Part shown: positions 51,862 to 62,876 of the stretch, piece after piece
Layout: every line of letters begins with the position of its first letter
Position numbering within the stretch: the first letter of the stretch is position 1
Source: Seleniivibrio woodruffii
Lineage (GTDB): Bacteria; Chrysiogenota; Deferribacteres; Deferribacterales; Geovibrionaceae
Assembly (NCBI RefSeq): GCF_004339245.1
Contig: NZ_SMGG01000007.1
Location: 1-64,000, forward strand
Direction of reading: 5' to 3'
Length of the DNA: 64,000 nt
Made by a program: the position numbers and the translations under genes
Notes under the pieces: generated by a model
What the model was told of the DNA's origin: nothing
The model's database searches: none
What the model saw: only the letters and a program-made list of their open reading frames with translations

Positions 51862-51873
51862 AATTTCTTTCAC

Positions 51874-51947
51874 GCCCCCGTAGCTCAGGCGGATAGAGCG
51901 ATGGATTCCTAATCCAGAGGCCGCATGTTCGAGTCATGCCGGGGGCG
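51874..51947 (+). tRNA. tRNA-Arg (CCT), probable integration site
   Basis: GCCCCCG (51874-51880) pairs with CGGGGGC (51940-51946), discriminator G at 51947. The anticodon loop TTCCTAA gives CCT, and the T arm is GCATGTTCGAGTCATGC. CCA is not encoded. A tyrosine integrase starts 200 bases downstream, so the 3' half is probably the left attachment site. The outermost anticodon stem pair is mismatched. Confidence 0.93.
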
Positions 51948-52147
51948 TTTGTTTTACCAATGTTTTCAATCACTTATCAGAAATATCCTAAAAATTCAAA
52001 ATTACTCTAAGTTACTGATAATTTCTCTGGATTACCCTTTTTGGCGCAAATATGGCGCAAAGAAATTCAAGCTATATGACTATTAAATAAGAGCTTTTTA
52101 TTTGACAAATCCTCTAAAAAACACTATATTGATTTATGAGGTGAGTC

Positions 52148-53293
52148 ATGGGAGTAAAATTTATTACAACTAATTACCCTGGTGTCGTCTATTACGAATC
52201 TGCGAAAAAAACACACAACAGTAAACCGGATCGTTGCTACTATTTTTCTGAAAAGAGAAAAACGGTCGACGGCAAATATAAAACGTTCAGAACAAAAATT
52301 GGGTGGGCATCCGAAGGCGTCACCATAGCTTATGCCAATGAAATACGTTCAGCTAACATGAAGTTGCGCAAACACGGCATAACAAAAGACATTGGGGCAT
52401 TCATGACTTTCAGAGAGGCGGCAGAGTTATATCTCAGAGATTTCGCTAATGGGAAAAGTAGTATCAAAGCAGACATTAGTCGTTTAAGTTACCGAATTCT
52501 CCCTGAATTTGGCGATAAGATCTTAAATGAAATAACAGCTGCACGCGTTCAGCAATTTTATAATAAGCTCTTGAAATCACCTACGAGAAACGGAAAAATT
52601 ATGGCTCCTGCCACCGCTGAGCACCATATTAAAATCATACGACAAATATTTAATTACCTGAAATATCAGCATAATTTTTTAAAAAACAATCCCGCAGATT
52701 TTCACTATTTAAAGTTGGCAAAATACGATAACACATTAATACGGTATCTGAATGACAAACAAACTGACGCTCTATTAAATGTTCTCGCCGAGTACAAAAA
52801 CAAAACAATAGCCAATATGATCACTCTGTATCTCCATACTGGCATGCGCAAATCTGTTATTCTCAATCTCACGTGGTCACAGATAGATACGCATTTATGG
52901 ACCATACAGTTCACCAACAAGGACAGCTCCCTTGATACAATTGTACTTAACTCTGCTGCCCAAACTGTTTTAGCCGAACAAATGGCAAATGGCTCAGACT
53001 CAGAATTTGTCTTCACGTCTAAAAACGATAAAAACTGGGTAAACATTTCAAAACATTGGAAAAAAATTAAAGAAATGGCTGGATTAACAAATTTCAGACT
53101 ACACGATCTCCGTCATAATTTTGCAACACAACTCCACTTTAATCAAACCGAAATGAGAGATATCATGGCTCTAATGACACATAAAGACGCAAAAACAACA
53201 TTAAAATATACACATGTCAACCCTGCCAGACTTAGAGAAATGAGCGAGCTTATTGTCAAGAAACGCATTGACAAACAAGACAAATCGAACTAA
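52148..53293 (+). CDS. int: tyrosine recombinase / integrase
   Basis: The 381-residue protein has an N-terminal arm-binding region, a SAM-like core-binding domain (about 90-190), and the catalytic domain with Arg in HTGMRKSVILNL, HDLRHNFATQ (HxxR), His in MTHKD and the nucleophile in LKYTHV. It should cut and join DNA between the tRNA-Arg 3' end and its circular partner. GGCGCAAATATGGCGCAAA, a direct repeat at about 52041-52059, lies between the tRNA and the gene and may be an arm-type binding site. Confidence 0.93.
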   Translation: MGVKFITTNYPGVVYYESAKKTHNSKPDRCYYFSEKRKTVDGKYKTFRTKIGWASEGVTIAYANEIRSANMKLRKHGITKDIGAFMTFREAAELYLRDFANGKSSIKADISRLSYRILPEFGDKILNEITAARVQQFYNKLLKSPTRNGKIMAPATAEHHIKIIRQIFNYLKYQHNFLKNNPADFHYLKLAKYDNTLIRYLNDKQTDALLNVLAEYKNKTIANMITLYLHTGMRKSVILNLTWSQIDTHLWTIQFTNKDSSLDTIVLNSAAQTVLAEQMANGSDSEFVFTSKNDKNWVNISKHWKKIKEMAGLTNFRLHDLRHNFATQLHFNQTEMRDIMALMTHKDAKTTLKYTHVNPARLREMSELIVKKRIDKQDKSN

Positions 53294-53505: not shown

Positions 53506-53820
53506 ATGAACATTCTGTTCCTACGCATCGTGCACATTATTATGCGCAAACACAATTCCTATATCGATAGGAAATTTTTCGAATTGTCCCATCAGCTCAT
53601 CGCTGAAATTACCAATCAGCAGAAATTTTCTCGAATTGATGCAACATTCAGCATCGAGGAAACTGCTGCGTTACTACACACCACTCCTGCGAATCTCGCA
53701 AAATGGCGGTGTATCGGCCGAGGTCCTCGCTACCGTAAAGACGGTGGAAACGTTTTTTACACGGCAAAAGACCTGCAGACCTATCTCAACAGGATAGCGT
53801 CTAAGAAACCAAAATATTAA
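53506..53820 (+). CDS. excisionase-like helix-turn-helix protein
   Basis: The 104-residue protein has a MerR/Xis-type HTH at about 46-95 (FSIEETAALLHTTPANLAKWRCIGRGPRYRKDGG, then YTAKDLQTYLNR), where a short winged helix is followed by a DNA-contact loop. GGAG before the ATG at 53506 supports this start. With the integrase next door it likely directs excision or regulates the element. Confidence 0.8.
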   Translation: MNILFLRIVHIIMRKHNSYIDRKFFELSHQLIAEITNQQKFSRIDATFSIEETAALLHTTPANLAKWRCIGRGPRYRKDGGNVFYTAKDLQTYLNRIASKKPKY

Positions 53821-54308: not shown

Positions 54309-55337
54309 ATGCAAAACATTTCAGATGAACTCTTAAACCCTCGCCTCTCCTTACTGAATAAACTCGGCGGCATATCTTCGCCAGTCGTAACCAATAACGA
54401 ATGGCTGTATCTGCTCACAGAAGAGACAAGAAACTCCATATTAATTGAAGGATATTTCGTAGATAAGAAATCACTCCAAGATGTGTTCAGCAATAAGAAA
54501 TATAAAAACAATAGTGACGATGTTGACAAAGCTGTCAACTACCACCAAGCTGCCAATACATTCTACGGACTCGCATACAACGACTACGTGGACAAAACAG
54601 ACTCGTTCCTTACCTCCGCAATCATCAAAACCATCAACTCCACTCTGCGCCAAGGAGACAACGACACAGGTTTCCGCAGAGATCATATCGTAATAACAGG
54701 CTCAAAACACACTCCGCCAGACTACGTTGACATTGAATATCTCATAAAAAATCATTTCCTTGAACATATCATAAAGTCGAGAAAGGCTTATATGGCAGGC
54801 GGAATAAAGCTCTCTACATACATTAACTCTATTGCAAAACTTCATTGTCTTTTCGAGGCGATACACCCCTTCGCTGACGGCAACGGCAGAACCGGAAGAA
54901 TATTCCTAAACTGCATGCTTATTGCATCGGGATTACCTCCCGTTATCATCAAAGGAGCAGATAACGACAGAAACAAATATTATGCCGCACTTGAAGAGTT
55001 CGACTCAAAACTTGGAAATAGCCTGAATTTCAGAGATTCATTTTACAGGATTGACAACCTGATAAAAGATGAAGGCAACGCAGAGCTTATGACGGGCATT
55101 ATTTATGATTCTCTTCTTTATAGTTTAGACACTTTCATATGCAATACTCTTGAGAATAAAGGCGTAAAAATCAGCCCTATTGCAGATATTGCGCCATCTA
55201 TGGGCTACACAGCAGACTCTCTTCGTGTCATGGTCAACCGGGGACAACTCATTGCAAAAAAAGCAGGTAAAACTTGGTGTTCCAGCGAAATACTCCTTAT
55301 TAAGAATAATATGACTGAGATTGAAAGCACTATTTAA
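54309..55337 (+). CDS. fic: Fic-domain AMPylase, class II
   Basis: Fic enzymes transfer AMP to hydroxyls of target proteins. The 342-residue protein has the catalytic HPFADGNGRTGR (His at about residue 186) and an N-terminal inhibitory SILIEG (Ser43-x3-Glu47-Gly48), the class II motif (S/T)xxxE(G/N) that blocks ATP binding. The C-terminal part (about 285-342) with APSMGYTADSLRVMVNRGQL is winged-helix-like and could bind the upstream operator. It lies on the mobile element next to the RADAR genes. Its target is unknown. Confidence 0.92.
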   Translation: MQNISDELLNPRLSLLNKLGGISSPVVTNNEWLYLLTEETRNSILIEGYFVDKKSLQDVFSNKKYKNNSDDVDKAVNYHQAANTFYGLAYNDYVDKTDSFLTSAIIKTINSTLRQGDNDTGFRRDHIVITGSKHTPPDYVDIEYLIKNHFLEHIIKSRKAYMAGGIKLSTYINSIAKLHCLFEAIHPFADGNGRTGRIFLNCMLIASGLPPVIIKGADNDRNKYYAALEEFDSKLGNSLNFRDSFYRIDNLIKDEGNAELMTGIIYDSLLYSLDTFICNTLENKGVKISPIADIAPSMGYTADSLRVMVNRGQLIAKKAGKTWCSSEILLIKNNMTEIESTI

Positions 55338-55377
55338 TAACTACAAGTTAAAATACGTTTATTTCAGCGTGAATTTT

Positions 55378-56006
55378 CTATTCTCCGTATTTTCGCTTCT
55401 AACGAAATTTGCATCCATAAACACAAAACTCCAACTCACAAGCTTTTTTTCGTCTCATACAGGCTCACAGCCACTCACAACGCCATACCAGAGTTGCAAC
55501 GCCATGACATAGGAAAAAACCGCATATCAATGGATGATATTACTGACAGCTAAAATTTTAGTTTGCACATAAATCTTTCCCAAAAAAGCCGAATAAAATC
55601 ACTGTCGATTTTTACACTGACTGAATTCATTTGCATAGAAACCAATTGTTTTATTTTAAAAAATGTAGAATTAGAAATCGCTTTCGCTCGAAATAGAAAC
55701 TGTAAAACATACGAAGTATATAATAGTGGATAATGCTGGCGTTTCTAGAAACGCCGAGCGGCGTTTGTAGGAACGCCGGCCGGCGTTCACGGAGCTGCTA
55801 ACTGGTTGCTAAAAATTCTGAACATTATCTCATAATTTTTACTATATAGTTTTGCGTTTAATTATTTTAATAACTATTATTTCAGGCTCATTTCTACTCT
55901 AAAATTCTATGTTAACTAATCACACAGCACTAGGGTTCATGTAACTCAATATCGGGCATCGCAATCCCAGTTGAGACCCAAAACAATCCCAACTCTGTCT
56001 AGCATT
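55378..56006 (+). repeat. long direct repeat, left copy (flanks RADAR)
   Basis: About 629 bases nearly identical in order to 61405-62035. It includes CAACGCCATACCAGAG, a run of palindromes GGCGTTTCTAGAAACGCC then GGCGTTTGTAGGAACGCC then GGCCGGCGTTC (about 55739-55790), and the end ATCGGGCATCGCAATCCCAG. Differences are scattered single bases and small indels. This stretch has no good gene; a frame open in the other copy is stopped here by TAA. It lies between fic and rdrA. Confidence 0.9.
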
Positions 56007-56111
56007 GATGCCTCACAAAACCACTTCAGCTTAAAAACAACTATAAAACATTCAATTTGGAAATTGATTTTTTAAATGTTATTATTACAAATATGATATT
56101 AGGAGCAAAGA

Positions 56112-58907
56112 ATGGTAAGAAAACTTAGAAATGAAATTATAATCAACTTAAACGACGAGAGAGACGCATATGCAGTCAGTAATACAAACGAATGGATTCA
56201 CATAAAACAACGAAAAAGAATAATTGAGCTAATTCAGGAGTCACTCACAAAGCTTGAAAATATAAAAGATTACCAAAACGCATTTTCAGCCATAAGACCT
56301 CATGATACCATTCTGATCTCCGGGGGAAGGGGCACAGGAAAAACAACTTTTATTTTAAGTTTATTCAAAGAAATCGAATCGGGGACTATTCTTTCTGACA
56401 AAAAAATAGAGTTAATCGCACCTATAGACCCAACACTCATAGAAGATAAAAGCAACATTCTGATCAATATTATTTCCAAGATTAAAGAGAAAGTCAAATG
56501 CAGCATATCCGTCAAGAATCAATGCGATAAAATTGATGCGCAATACAGAGCATGGGAAGAATCTTTGAAAGCACTAGCAGATGGCTTGCAAGGGCTTGAC
56601 GGCATTGGCGGCGACATGCGTACTTCCGACTGGCATGACAGTGATTACATAATGAAAAAAGGGTTATCTAATGTCCATGCCGCAAATAATCTCGAGTCAA
56701 ATTTATCAACGTTCATGAAAAACAGTCTTACGCTACTAGATAAAGAAATCTTCATGGTAGCTTTTGACGACATCGACACAAATTTTGAAAAGGGGTGGTC
56801 TGTTCTTGAAGTCTTAAGAAAGTATCTTGCCATCCCACAATTAATCACAATAATGACAGGAGATATTTCTCTTTACTCTTTACTTGTCAGAAAGCATCAA
56901 TGGGAAAATTTTGGCGAAGACTTAATAAAAAATGATGTTGTTCAATATACGGGAAGATACAATGAGCCTATTCGAAACCCTATGAGATACGATGACACAG
57001 TATCTGAACTTGAAGAGCAATATATGCTCAAAATACTTAAACCTGAAAGAAGAATTATGCTCGATTCCCTGTTCAACAAAGGGAGTTATTTCTCAATAAA
57101 AATAAAACACATTGACACATCTCAATCAGCAATAATACAAGACCTGGCAAGCTTTTACAGCGAATTTTTTAACCTTTTTGGTATTAGATCCGGATTCGGC
57201 AGATACTATGAATACGTTACGTCTCAACCAATTCGTAAACAAAAACAATTGATGTATATCTATAGTAAAACCAAGAACAAAGAAATAATTATTAATTCTA
57301 TGTTTGATATTTTCTGGACGGAACTTGACAGATGCGGCATCAATATTTTCAATTTACGCAATAACAGAAGCAATATTATGCAGGAATCACTTCATTATTT
57401 GCTTAAGAACTTTATTCTTTACGGTGGTTTTTCGTTTGAGCTTTTCTCAAACAACGAGAATATTAACGGTTCGCAGCTTATGTTAAGTTTTGTACTTAAT
57501 AACAGTTTTGAAAATAATCCCTCAACAATATTTGACTACTTAATAAGAATTGGTTTCTCCACAAACTTTATCAAGCGTATTGAAGCAACCACCGGGCAAG
57601 CAACTTACCCTGTCACAAATATCCCAACCTCGAATGATTATCTAAATCATATAGGCACATGGCAAGATAAATCTTTGGTGTCTATCGCCAGTGCCTCAAC
57701 AAGTTATATCAGAGCCCTCAAAAGCTACAACGCTATATTCAACGCAAAAGAAACTCTATCATTTGATGATATGGGAAATTATCTGGGCACAGCAGCTCTC
57801 TATGGATACTATAAAACATCTAGAAAAAGAATAAATAAAAAGAGAATTGACGAAATCATTACTAAAGATGAAGAAAATGTCGAATGGGTATTGGCAATGT
57901 TAACAATTGTTAACGTATCAAATGCTTCTGGACAGACCATTCCTGTTTTCTCAGTACATAAACTAATCGGAGTTTTAAATAGGCTGATAAATAAATATTA
58001 CGAGTCAGCATATTTAAACTCAGAAATTATTGAGTCAGAATTATCTAAATTAGGACAAATAAAAGACTTCTTGTATCCTGATTGGGCATCAAAGATGCCT
58101 ATAAAAGTTAACGATAACTTTGAGACAGATGAAATTGAGGAATCACATAATCAGAAAAATACAAACACTAAGCTCAATGAGTTAGCCACTATAATCAGTG
58201 AGTGGATTAGCTCCAGCGAACCTATTAATATTTCGCCCACGCTACTAGGCAGGATATCAACTAGGTTTTTCTATGCCCTTTTACGTATTGATGAAAAGCA
58301 GTATCAAAAACTAGGCGAATACATTCACAGAGTGTTGATTGTATTTTTATATTCAATTTTAGTTGAAGAACTGGATGAGAACAGCAAAGAAATAAGAATC
58401 CAAAGAACTAACCCCACAGATACCGATGGGCTGTTTGATAATGCGTTAAAAACACTGGCTGGAATAGATGGATTGAACTTGCCTTTCTTCGAATGGATAC
58501 TCACATGTCCTCTAATCACTGTTTATCTTGATAAAGAAACACTCAAAAAGATTAGTAACTACAAAGAATCGGATATTAACAGCGAAGAATTCAATATACA
58601 TGCAAAGCTGATGAAAGTTGATATTTATACTAAAAATGTCCCTTCGAGTACCGCCGATAACAACGAAGGAATCGGTGAAAAGCCAAATATTGGAGTATAC
58701 AATAACAAACACATTGAAATATTCGAAACTTATCTAGTCCGTTCAGGGTATGATATGAAAAAAATTAATCCAAGAAATAACAATATATTATACGAAATAA
58801 AAGACAAAGTTAATGAAGATATACAATTCCCCTATCGTTTACCATCAATAAAAACAGTCAGCTCACTTATTAATACAATAAAGAGCAGGAATAGCAAAAA
58901 ACAATGA
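56112..58907 (+). CDS. rdrA: RADAR ATPase RdrA
   Basis: The 931-residue protein has a P-loop (GGRGTGKT at 71-78) and a Walker B-like FMVAFDDID at 214-222 in a KAP/AAA-type NTPase, followed by a long helical region without other known domains. An NTPase of this size, overlapped by 4 bases (ATGA) with an 800-residue adenosine-deaminase-like gene, is the layout of RADAR, where RdrA assembles with RdrB against phage. AGGAG precedes the ATG at 56112. I identify it from architecture and partner; homology should be checked. Confidence 0.82.
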   Translation: MVRKLRNEIIINLNDERDAYAVSNTNEWIHIKQRKRIIELIQESLTKLENIKDYQNAFSAIRPHDTILISGGRGTGKTTFILSLFKEIESGTILSDKKIELIAPIDPTLIEDKSNILINIISKIKEKVKCSISVKNQCDKIDAQYRAWEESLKALADGLQGLDGIGGDMRTSDWHDSDYIMKKGLSNVHAANNLESNLSTFMKNSLTLLDKEIFMVAFDDIDTNFEKGWSVLEVLRKYLAIPQLITIMTGDISLYSLLVRKHQWENFGEDLIKNDVVQYTGRYNEPIRNPMRYDDTVSELEEQYMLKILKPERRIMLDSLFNKGSYFSIKIKHIDTSQSAIIQDLASFYSEFFNLFGIRSGFGRYYEYVTSQPIRKQKQLMYIYSKTKNKEIIINSMFDIFWTELDRCGINIFNLRNNRSNIMQESLHYLLKNFILYGGFSFELFSNNENINGSQLMLSFVLNNSFENNPSTIFDYLIRIGFSTNFIKRIEATTGQATYPVTNIPTSNDYLNHIGTWQDKSLVSIASASTSYIRALKSYNAIFNAKETLSFDDMGNYLGTAALYGYYKTSRKRINKKRIDEIITKDEENVEWVLAMLTIVNVSNASGQTIPVFSVHKLIGVLNRLINKYYESAYLNSEIIESELSKLGQIKDFLYPDWASKMPIKVNDNFETDEIEESHNQKNTNTKLNELATIISEWISSSEPINISPTLLGRISTRFFYALLRIDEKQYQKLGEYIHRVLIVFLYSILVEELDENSKEIRIQRTNPTDTDGLFDNALKTLAGIDGLNLPFFEWILTCPLITVYLDKETLKKISNYKESDINSEEFNIHAKLMKVDIYTKNVPSSTADNNEGIGEKPNIGVYNNKHIEIFETYLVRSGYDMKKINPRNNNILYEIKDKVNEDIQFPYRLPSIKTVSSLINTIKSRNSKKQ

Positions 58908-61270
58908 GTAACACACCATCGTTAAGACAAATTCTTTTTGATATAAATTCGTTAAAAGATTACGAAACAGGTAATGGCAAACCGGAATTTGAAGATATTA
59001 AAAGAAGAATGGTGCTCAACGAACGTTCACTCAACAGAAATTTGCCTGATCATTATTACAATAACGGTTACGAATATGTACTGGGCGGAATCAATGATAT
59101 AAATTCACTTCTGACCAAAGGGTTAACAAAACTCGGCTCCGAGCATCTGACAATTTTTAAGGATCTTGTCTATGTAAAGACTGAAAGCTTTTCGGACTGG
59201 CAAGAGTTACTGACTTTATGCCCCCCACTGATACTTGTTTGTGCTTTTTTATGGGACACTAAATACTGCAAAAGCCAGACGAAAGTCTGTTGTATATCAG
59301 AATTTACTATAGAGTATTTGAAACCGCACACTATTTACACATGTATTCCTTCACCAAGATTCATTCATCTGGATAGTTTCATTGAAGAAAATGGTGGTCT
59401 TTACGATCTGCACATGCACTTGAACGGTTCAACAGAAACCGATATAGCATGGCACTATTTTCTACAGACACCTGAAAAAGTCAAAAAAGGCCTAATGAGT
59501 GCAAGCCATAACCAAAAAGTCATAGAACAGATTGAACAGACGGAAAATGGTTTTACACCGGACGTTCTCTATCAACGCCTGCAAGCCGCAGTTGAACTCA
59601 GACATGATATCGTAAGAACAATACTTGCGTCTTATGGCATTATAAAATGTGAAAACTACATAAAAGTCAGTGACAGACACCCTATGACTCTGCTGTTTAG
59701 CTCCTATTCTGACCCAGACAGCAATTGGCGTGATGAAACAATGGAAGCCTTGATGTATATCTTGGCACTAGACCACATTCATACACACCAAAGCAGTACT
59801 CTGGCAAAAATATTCCACCACTACCTCCTCATTTTGGGTTTCATTAACCAGTTCCTTGTTCAACAGATTCATCAGAGCGGTTTTGACCAATTCCAAAAAA
59901 TCACACTTAACAAGTTTCGTGAAACACCAGAAGAAACTTATGCAAGGCGATTTTTTCAATTGGGAGGATACAAACAGAATAACTTTAAAATGATTGAAGG
60001 ACGGTTCGCTCCGAAAGATACACCGCAGAAAAACAGAGAGCAGATAAACCTTATACTTTCTGGATGGGGAAAATATAAAGAAAAAATTAAGAGCCGTTAC
60101 GATGACCTAAAAGTTGACTCCGACCATATAGAATTAAAGCTCGTAGCTCACTTTATAAAACAAAGTGATTCCAATATATCAACTGATACCGATGACTTCT
60201 TTATTCCTCATACAAGATTACGTAAGTCTCTATGGCAGAAGGCTGCTGCCCTTATTGTAACCAAAAACCACACAGAGCACGGTCAATACCTCACCGGAGT
60301 TGACGCTGCATCCAATGAGTTGGAAACACCGCCTGAAGTTTTTGCCCCGATATACAGACACTTGAGAAATAATGGGTTCAGTCATTTCACATACCATGCG
60401 GGCGAAGATTTCCATCATATCGTAGGTGGACTCAGAGCTATGTACGAGGCTGTTGATTTTCTCGATTTAAAAGCAGGAGACAGAATCGGGCACGGCACTG
60501 CAATGGGAATCAGCCCTGAATTATGGCACGGTCACACAGGGAATTTTCTATTTTTGAACAAAGGTGAATGGTTGGATGACTTACTATTCTCAATTTTCCT
60601 AATTGAAAAATACGATGACGGCTCTCTTGTCAATTTGTCCAGTAAACTCCGCTTTGAAGCTGAAAAAAAAGCATCGGAAATATATGGGAACTATTTTCAT
60701 ATAGGAGCTTTAATCGGTGCATGGAAGCTCAGAAAGTTCTGCCCTTTTCATATGTTTCCTGTTGAAAGTTCTCTAGGGCATAACGACTACTCAACTGAAA
60801 CGGTAGCCTGCTGTCAGGCAAAGCCGGATAAAATACAGTCAGACCTGTTGAAAGCTTACTATACACAATCGATAAAAAAGCGATATGATATTAAAGAAAA
60901 AATTGAAACATTAGGCCTGTTCAGTCTGGATGACCTGTGGAAGTTGCAAATAATTCTCCAGAAATATATGCACCAGAAAGAAATCGTAATGGAAGTCCTA
61001 CCAACAAGTAATGTTAGAATAAGTTATTACAGCCAATACTCAGAACATCATATATGGAGATGGCTCGGATTGAATAAAGTTAACAATTGCGACACCTTGC
61101 CCCCCATCGTCCTCGGAACAGACGATACTGGCATATTTGCGTCAAATATAAGAAACGAGTATGCTCATATTTATAACCATCTGATTAATACCATAAAGTT
61201 ACCTCACCAATCAGCCTTGAAGTATATTAAGGAAATTCATGAAAGCAGTAAAGTGTATGCGTTTAAATAG
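58904..61270 (+). CDS. rdrB: RADAR adenosine deaminase RdrB
   Basis: The 788-residue protein has the metal-site and catalytic motifs of adenosine deaminases: LHMHLNGS (His170, His172), YHAGEDF (His498, Glu501), GHGTAMG (His530) and LGTDDTG (Asp740-Asp741). It is far longer than housekeeping Add (about 330), with an N-terminal domain of about 160 residues and large insertions, as in RdrB. RdrB was reported to deaminate adenosine in RNA and, in later work, ATP/dATP. Its start overlaps rdrA as ATGA. All key residues look intact. Confidence 0.87.
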   Translation: MSNTPSLRQILFDINSLKDYETGNGKPEFEDIKRRMVLNERSLNRNLPDHYYNNGYEYVLGGINDINSLLTKGLTKLGSEHLTIFKDLVYVKTESFSDWQELLTLCPPLILVCAFLWDTKYCKSQTKVCCISEFTIEYLKPHTIYTCIPSPRFIHLDSFIEENGGLYDLHMHLNGSTETDIAWHYFLQTPEKVKKGLMSASHNQKVIEQIEQTENGFTPDVLYQRLQAAVELRHDIVRTILASYGIIKCENYIKVSDRHPMTLLFSSYSDPDSNWRDETMEALMYILALDHIHTHQSSTLAKIFHHYLLILGFINQFLVQQIHQSGFDQFQKITLNKFRETPEETYARRFFQLGGYKQNNFKMIEGRFAPKDTPQKNREQINLILSGWGKYKEKIKSRYDDLKVDSDHIELKLVAHFIKQSDSNISTDTDDFFIPHTRLRKSLWQKAAALIVTKNHTEHGQYLTGVDAASNELETPPEVFAPIYRHLRNNGFSHFTYHAGEDFHHIVGGLRAMYEAVDFLDLKAGDRIGHGTAMGISPELWHGHTGNFLFLNKGEWLDDLLFSIFLIEKYDDGSLVNLSSKLRFEAEKKASEIYGNYFHIGALIGAWKLRKFCPFHMFPVESSLGHNDYSTETVACCQAKPDKIQSDLLKAYYTQSIKKRYDIKEKIETLGLFSLDDLWKLQIILQKYMHQKEIVMEVLPTSNVRISYYSQYSEHHIWRWLGLNKVNNCDTLPPIVLGTDDTGIFASNIRNEYAHIYNHLINTIKLPHQSALKYIKEIHESSKVYAFK

Positions 61271-61404
61271 TAAATAAAGAAATCTAACTTTAACAATATT
61301 ACAAGGAGTCTAACTGTGACTGGTTTTGTTCCATTATTGACGGTGTTTTCAACGCAGCATAAATATAACTATTAATTAAATATGTTTGTTTTAGTACTCT
61401 TTAT

Positions 61405-62035
61405 CTATTATCCGTATTTTCGCTTCTAACGCAATTTGCGTTCATAAACACAAAACTCCAACTCCCAAACTATTTTTCGTCACAGACAGGCTCATAGGCT
61501 CTCACAACGCCATACCAGAGTTGCAACGCCATGACATAGGAAAAAACCGCATATCAATGGATGATATTACTGACAGCTATAATTTTAGTTTGCACATAAA
61601 TCTTTCCCAAAGAAGCCGAATAAAATCACTGTCGATTTTTACACTGACTAAATTCATTTGCATAGAAACTAGTTGTTTTATTTTAAAAAATGGAGAAATA
61701 GAAATCGCTTTCGCTCGAAATAGAAACTGTAAAACATACGAAGTATATAATACTGGATAACGCTGGCGTTTCCAGAAACGCCGAGCGGCGTTTGCAGGAA
61801 CGCCGGCCGGCGTTCACGGAGCTGCTAACTGGTTGCTAAAAATTCTGAACGTTAGGTCATAATGAAAACTATATAGTATTGCATTTAATTATTTTAATAA
61901 CTATTATTTTAGCCTCATTTCCACTCTGAAATTCAGTGTTAACTAACCGCACAGGACGGGGGTTCATGTAACCCAATATCGGGCATCGCAATCCCAGTTG
62001 AGACCCAAAACAATCCCAACTCTATCCAACATCAG
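61405..62035 (+). repeat. long direct repeat, right copy (flanks RADAR)
   Basis: About 631 bases matching 55378-56006. It adds a perfect AACGCAA-T-TTGCGTT palindrome where the left copy has lost it. The palindrome run (about 61766-61817) is GGCGTTTCCAGAAACGCC, GGCGTTTGCAGGAACGCC, GGCCGGCGTTC. Its last 14 bases are the 3' end of the HD-like gene. The 61521-61760 frame is open here, but most differences from the left copy change amino acids, so I do not call it a gene. The stretch 61271-61404 holds nothing I recognise. Confidence 0.9.
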
Positions 62036-62876
62036 AGCAATTGTCGCTCATATTCCATATCGAACATGAAACAATGCGTCGATGAGCCTGCATATTCTTT
62101 CGCACCTCTGTTACCCTGTCATTCTGCAAGTCATAAATAATCCGCGCTTCAACAGATCTCGCCAGCACATTCCCATCTGGAGAATGATGAAGAATGATAT
62201 TCTCAAGTTTTTGAAGAACCGGCTCATCGATCTCAATCATCTTGGCAGCATTCTCTAACAATATCTTATGCGATGAAGAAACAGCACCGACATAAAGACC
62301 TGTGTGCGTGACCTGAAAGCCTCGCTCTGTCATCCTGTAACACTTGGCTTTTCCAATATTAACAAGCATAATTCCCATGATGAGATGGTCATAATTTATA
62401 TATTTTCCAATGCGATCCATCTTCGCAAATAGTTCTGCTGTCTCAAAAAGCTCGCAGGTATGAACCAGAAGACCGCCAATGTAATTATATTTACTGTCAT
62501 TCGACTCCGGCGCATCTACAAACAACCTCATTAGCTTTCTGTCTCGATGAATCATGCGGAATAGCCTACTACACATGTCATCCTGCAGATTAAAACTGTA
62601 ATCCACAAACTTCTGCATGTATTTTTCATAAAGCTTGTTCAGACCTATTCTTACTCTGGAAATGCTGATCCTACCGTTTTTCCTATTCTTAATCCTGACA
62701 CCGTCGATACTGATTTCACTGTAATCAGCCAGAATACGAAGTGTGGCATCGATATTATCTTTGCAGTAGGCAACTTCTTGTCCTTTTGGACCAGAAACAT
62801 GTAGTTTCAAACACCTGCCGTCAGAGTTGACAACTTCCTTATGTATGACTACAAACTCACCAAGATATTCAACCAT
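62022..62876 (-). CDS. YhaM-like HD-superfamily protein with degraded HD motif
   Basis: The 284-residue protein resembles 3'-5' exoribonuclease YhaM's HD domain: NYIGGLLVHTCELFETAELF, HLIMGIMLVNIGK, LHHSPDG and EARIIYDLQNDRV. In active enzymes the middle motif is LHDIGK; here it reads LVNIGK, so both the His and Asp of HD are gone. It may be a non-catalytic binder. It is the leftward gene of a divergent pair; palindromic operators lie upstream. Its final codons lie in the direct repeat. Confidence 0.75.
   Translation of the reverse strand: MVEYLGEFVVIHKEVVNSDGRCLKLHVSGPKGQEVAYCKDNIDATLRILADYSEISIDGVRIKNRKNGRISISRVRIGLNKLYEKYMQKFVDYSFNLQDDMCSRLFRMIHRDRKLMRLFVDAPESNDSKYNYIGGLLVHTCELFETAELFAKMDRIGKYINYDHLIMGIMLVNIGKAKCYRMTERGFQVTHTGLYVGAVSSSHKILLENAAKMIEIDEPVLQKLENIILHHSPDGNVLARSVEARIIYDLQNDRVTEVRKNMQAHRRIVSCSIWNMSDNCSDVG

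Follow-up and report, generated by a model that had tools for sequence, protein, structure and literature searches.

A divergent predicted RADAR gene pair bracketed by long direct repeats in a tRNA-Arg island of Seleniivibrio woodruffii

Two overlapping genes of Seleniivibrio woodruffii, one for an AAA+ ATPase and one for an adenosine-deaminase-fold protein, raise the question of whether they form a RADAR anti-phage system and in what genetic setting they are carried. We analysed a 64,000-nucleotide stretch of DNA, hereafter the window, which corresponds to contig positions 1-64000, and our computations covered the gene pair, its predicted folds and catalytic residues, the conservation of the operon, the island and the repeats (Table 1). 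An earlier reading made from the sequence alone had described two open reading frames with an ATGA overlap and a set of motif residues, all of which we confirmed in the sequence. Both genes lie on the + strand with zero internal stops, the ATGA at 58904-58907 is common to both, and rdrA stands immediately 5' of rdrB on the same strand, as is the RADAR gene order. RdrA carries a Walker A motif, GGRGTGKTT, at residues 71-79 (GRGTGKT core, 72-78), a Walker B motif, FDDID, at 218-222 (DD, 219-220), and sensor residues D251 (sensor 1) and R375 (sensor 2), both present and conserved. RdrB contains HMH (H170, H172), HAGED (498-502), GHG (529-531) and TDD (739-741), and its zinc-binding histidine tetrad (H170, H172, H498, H530) and catalytic E501 are complete.

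Table 1. Coordinates of the features discussed (window positions unless a locus is named)
Feature	Coordinates	Strand	Remarks
tRNA-Arg(CCT)	51873..51948	+	integration target
attL	51902..51955	+	54-bp exact direct repeat of the tRNA 3' end
Tyrosine integrase of the island	52148..53293	+	Phage_integrase 1e-24
Small HTH_17/MerR-like protein	53506..53820	+	also in sister species without rdrAB
Fic-domain protein	54309..55337	+	also in sister species without rdrAB
Direct repeat R1	55374..55996	+	left cassette border; contains the core at about 55708-55728
rdrA	56112..58907	+	931-aa AAA+ ATPase; AGGAG ribosome-binding site a few bases 5' of the start
rdrB	58904..61270	+	788-aa adenosine-deaminase-fold protein
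Direct repeat R2	61400..62023	+	right cassette border; reaches the 3' end of the YhaM-like gene
YhaM-like gene	62022..62876	-	E 6e-6; outside the cassette; next to Fic and a single R in the sister species
Further core copies, L035	1636, 6121, 9280	-	
Further core copy, L036	8912	+	
Further core copy, L037	6971	-	

The identification of the pair as RADAR, also proposed in the sequence-only reading, is upheld by family profiles, by the sequences of solved structures and by predicted structures, all of which name RADAR. RdrA and RdrB were the best families for the two proteins in PADLOC (7e-32 and 6e-26) and the top-scoring ones in NCBIfam (138 and 150 bits). Neither protein reached its NCBIfam equivalog cut-off (600 bits for RdrA, 800 bits for RdrB), and because the scores fall so far under these values we regard the pair as divergent. 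These cut-offs, which are a threshold for annotation, do not seem to bound the RADAR family, since several plasmid relatives are annotated just as "hypothetical protein", among them a Pantoea RdrB that is near-identical to the solved E. coli RdrB. Among sequences in the PDB, RdrB matched 8fnv over residues 38-787 (1e-72), and RdrA matched 8fnt in its ATPase part alone (4e-28), in agreement with the published account of the family, in which sequence conservation of RdrA is confined to that part (PMC9994260).

We predicted the structures of both proteins with AlphaFold, using 48 relatives for RdrA (pLDDT 85, pTM 0.80) and 50 for RdrB (pLDDT 91, pTM 0.92). In Foldseek, all 20 significant matches of the RdrA model were RADAR RdrA, and the top eight matches of the RdrB model were RADAR RdrB, with TM-scores of 0.80-0.82 of the query compared with about 0.27 for ordinary deaminases. 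VIA comparisons likewise placed RADAR proteins best: 697 residues of the RdrA model aligned with E. coli RADAR RdrA (Z 32.6, 3.5 Å) versus a Z of at most 11.7 for non-RADAR ATPases, and the RdrB model aligned with E. coli RdrB over 705 residues (Z 40.2, 2.7 Å) versus 313 residues (Z 29.1) for ordinary deaminases. In the RdrA model a four-helix crown (helices 116-134, 139-159, 177-192 and 194-209) precedes the Walker B strand, and this insertion and the helical C-terminal lobe both fall within the match to 8fnw/8fnt, which spans the full length (Z about 32). The N-terminal extension and two shell insertions of RdrB are contained in its alignment to 8fnv, which runs from residue 6 to 788. Because the model-to-structure matches span the RADAR proteins, the shell-building extensions of RdrB and the RdrB-touching crown of RdrA are present as predicted folds. 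At no point did RdrB match unrelated amidohydrolases only, or RdrA an unrelated NTPase family with a different partner.

A genome scan returned 431 relatives, and the best 80 of these 431, together with five viral loci, gave 85 loci for comparison. rdrA lies directly 5' of rdrB in 79 of the 85, and most of the other six reach a contig end. The Walker A and B motifs of RdrA are kept in all 88 sequences bar one gap, and its sensor-2 Arg375 in 87 of 88. In RdrB, H170 and H172 are kept in 92 of 94 sequences (the other two having gaps) and H530 in all 94; these three histidines and the TDD motif were not criteria of the scan, yet they are kept almost without exception, whereas the conservation of H498 and E501 is biased by the use in the scan of a motif containing both. 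Five viral loci were found by profile search, while a single-sequence search of viral contigs found none, and no RdrB match was found in phage records.

In the tree of RdrB sequences, the protein of the window is sister to that of a Desulfamplus sp. (support 99), within a branch that has strong support and holds 35 rows, 26 from Bacteroidota. The Pantoea RdrB shares a large branch with the window protein. The sequence-only reading had remarked on a missing accessory membrane protein and thought this version worth a look. The absence is real: between rdrB and position 62022 there are just short, spurious-looking open reading frames, none of them hydrophobic and the longest 79 aa with a TTG start. 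It does not mark a special version, as a multi-TM third gene (a direct neighbour with at least three predicted TM segments) occurs in about three of the 85 loci (L051, L058, L098); loci of this branch usually lack such a membrane gene, and two genes are the standard arrangement. In a set of 60 related genomes, a relative turned up in just one other, which belongs to the same phylum (G048). It is a different RADAR (L046, 7255-10504), with rdrB split and a transposase-like gene, in two inverted copies, between the pieces, and its RdrB groups with Paenalcaligenes and not with the window protein. This pattern fits horizontal gain.

From the sequences and models, we consider rdrAB an intact, divergent RADAR that very probably works by the E. 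coli-type mechanism. Oligomer state (an RdrA heptamer, an RdrB dodecamer and the giant complex of the two), substrate, trigger and protection are taken over here from the E. coli system, the function of which, like that of C. rodentium and S. suis RADAR, is described in PMC9994260. By this analogy, infection would switch on a ring of AAA+ RdrA subunits, which would dock through the four-helix crown on the RdrB shell; RdrB, a zinc-dependent enzyme of the adenosine-deaminase fold, would turn ATP and dATP into ITP and dITP, and these would poison the nucleotide pool and halt the phage. An alternative is that RADAR acts chiefly by RNA editing, with RdrA loading RNA and RdrB deaminating adenosines of transcripts. 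Such a mechanism was first put forward for C. rodentium RADAR, according to PMC9994260, and PDB entries among our RdrA matches describe rings in an "RNA-loading state". We nevertheless hold it to be highly unlikely, given that the same study detected neither robust in vivo editing nor deamination of RNA in vitro and instead saw a massive build-up of ITP and dITP (PMC9994260), and that the active site of RdrB, also in our predicted model, is of the mononucleotide-deaminase type.

We give very little credence to the idea that rdrAB is a decayed or silent copy without activity. RADAR is rare in the family (one of 12 genomes) and the relative in G048 is broken, with the transposase-like gene between its rdrB pieces, but here both reading frames are full length, the ribosome-binding site is in place and every catalytic residue is intact. 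There is next to no chance that the pair is instead a metabolic adenosine/AMP deaminase or a CRISPR-linked CARF-deaminase beside an unrelated NTPase: RdrB does hit the Pfam family A_deaminase (5e-12) and, with a weak match, PADLOC CARF_ADA (1e-6), both across the catalytic core that these proteins share, but the CARF_ADA match is restricted to the deaminase core (residues 438-540), the RADAR match of RdrB runs end to end through the RADAR-specific extensions (Z 40 over 705 residues versus 29 over 313), RdrA matches RADAR RdrA over its full length, and 79 of 85 relatives have the two genes as a pair.

The sequence-only reading had described the setting as a tRNA-bound integrative element worth a look. 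That description was borne out by the tRNA-Arg(CCT), the integrase and exact 54-bp direct repeats at both ends, and the setting can now be defined better, with both att ends located and rdrAB placed within long direct repeats. The island (element 1) spans contig positions 51902-71590 (19.6 kb), with the integrase at its left end and a GC content of 37% against 48-52% in the flanking chromosome. attL has partners at contig 71537-71590, the right end of element 1, and at 159598-159649 (~52 bp), the right end of a second element. An Rfam search found only the tRNA. The remaining cargo of element 1 comprises the HTH protein, the Fic protein, the YhaM-like gene and a restriction-modification pair, and no conjugation genes were recognised among the element 1 genes examined. 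Because the HTH and Fic genes are present without rdrAB in the sister species, we count them as parts of the island and not of RADAR.

The restriction-modification pair, which lies beyond the window (contig C7, 67163-70668), consists of an N6 methylase carrying a domain of HSDR_N type and of a specificity subunit. Also beyond the window, element 1 encodes a protein of 224 aa that seems to have about three membrane segments (65584-66258), overlapped by the following 178-aa open reading frame. We considered the 224-aa protein as a detached RADAR accessory and set this aside, no confident domain match having been found. In tandem with the island, at the same tRNA-Arg site, lies an 88 kb conjugative-type element (contig C7, 71537-159649) with type IV secretion genes (TraG-like, TraN), a reverse transcriptase, a molybdopterin oxidoreductase and a type III-like restriction enzyme. 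This element holds no second RADAR; a 931-aa open reading frame within it fails to match the RdrA profile.

What is new here is that rdrAB is bracketed by direct repeats of ~624 bp and that a sister allele has one repeat and lacks rdrAB. R1 and R2 are 92.8% identical. In another genome of the genus (G001), the order is integrase, HTH, Fic, a single R and the YhaM-like gene, with rdrAB absent; the left part of this R is like R1 and the right part like R2. rdrAB is carried as cargo of the island, and from the one-repeat allele of the sister species we infer that the flanking repeats probably let the pair be gained or lost as a whole through homologous recombination. The single R of G001 fits either a crossover between R1 and R2 that removed the pair from G001 or an insertion through homologous recombination that brought it into the genome studied here. 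The repeat-flanked layout and the rdrAB-less allele together make a clear case of a defence module as a removable unit within an island; this setting is more interesting than the RADAR pair itself, and it remains a lead.

Within R lies a core of about 21-30 bases, CATACGAAGTATATAATAGTG, found at window positions 55704 and 61731. In a sister genome (G004), the core borders a NACHT-like gene and an MBL-fold pair and also occurs beside a Shango operon, and in G003 it occurs at a site without cargo. Other genomes of the family yielded a single match with one mismatch (G009), and no core was found in viral contigs. The Shango-like operon (L037:845-6472, G004:C12), with SngA, SngB and SngC matches, lies ~500 bp from a core. 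The NACHT-like gene (L035:2046-5966, G004:C15) encodes a 1306-aa NACHT/STAND-like protein with a weak NACHT match, sits between two core copies and matched no PADLOC family. The core might mark sites where whole defence modules are swapped by dedicated cassette exchange and not by chance homologous recombination, an idea that we hold tentatively and rate as unlikely; if true, the modules swapped would be RADAR here and the NACHT-like gene, the MBL-fold pair and, at a second site, Shango in the sister genome. The repeats at first resembled attC sites, and we rejected an integron cassette on account of the lack of consistent paired boxes, a cargo far above the usual size and mixed gene orientation; no integron integrase passes the cut-off in the four genomes searched, where matches are no better than the Xer-type background. 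A role as promoter was rejected as well: the core holds TATAAT, but a promoter scan of 55300-62100 gave 24 versus 24.9 in shuffles, no excess, and in one sister genome the core is oriented against the genes of the cargo. As for RNA structure, the repeat yields merely six weak consensus pairs, and Rfam finds no family there.

Compared with known systems, the window RdrB shares a deaminase core with Cad1, the CARF-adenosine deaminase of type III CRISPR (9c77), which turns ATP into ITP (PMC11645235). Cad1 differs in that its chain includes the CARF sensor and that it lacks an RdrA partner, and only ~320 of its residues align to the window RdrB. RADAR loci of Bacteroidota, Spirochaetota and Bacillota (for example L048-L068, L071, L073-L078, L082, L083, L086, L088, L089 and L096) belong to the same strongly supported branch and have the two-gene layout, with RdrB ~34-41% identical; a few of them (L051, L058) carry a multi-TM third gene, unlike the window. 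The closest relative found is the Desulfamplus sp. RADAR (L047), from a Thermodesulfobacteriota host, in which rdrA again directly precedes rdrB and the proteins are 46% (RdrB) and 34% (RdrA) identical to those of the window, although its RdrA is longer (1059 versus 931 aa).

The RADAR systems of E. coli and C. rodentium (8fnt, 8fnv, 8fnw, 8hr7; PMC9994260) likewise consist of two adjacent genes and match the window pair in fold over the full length, sharing the AAA+ RdrA with its crown helices and helical C-terminal lobe and the RdrB zinc site with its three extensions, at an identity to E. coli RADAR on structural alignment of ~27% for RdrB and ~21% for RdrA. The EEE loop at the threefold interface of E. 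coli RdrB (E595-597), which is needed in E. coli, is missing from the window RdrB; the triplet is absent from most relatives examined too and, among these rows, is found in the E. coli-type lineage only, which makes it, by alignment, apparently a trait of that lineage rather than of the RADAR family. The crown residues K150, E151 and R162 tested in E. coli RdrA align with Y145, R146 and D157 of the window, which also has an LDGIG stretch that the E. coli-type sequence lacks. Because neither the EEE loop nor these crown residues are kept, shell and docking contacts may differ from those of E. coli RADAR: either other contacts would do the work of the EEE loop and the crown charges, or the assembly would differ. 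Since these features are needed in E. coli and are not kept here, this distant, intact pair could offer a way to test how general the individual contacts of the giant RdrA-RdrB assembly are.
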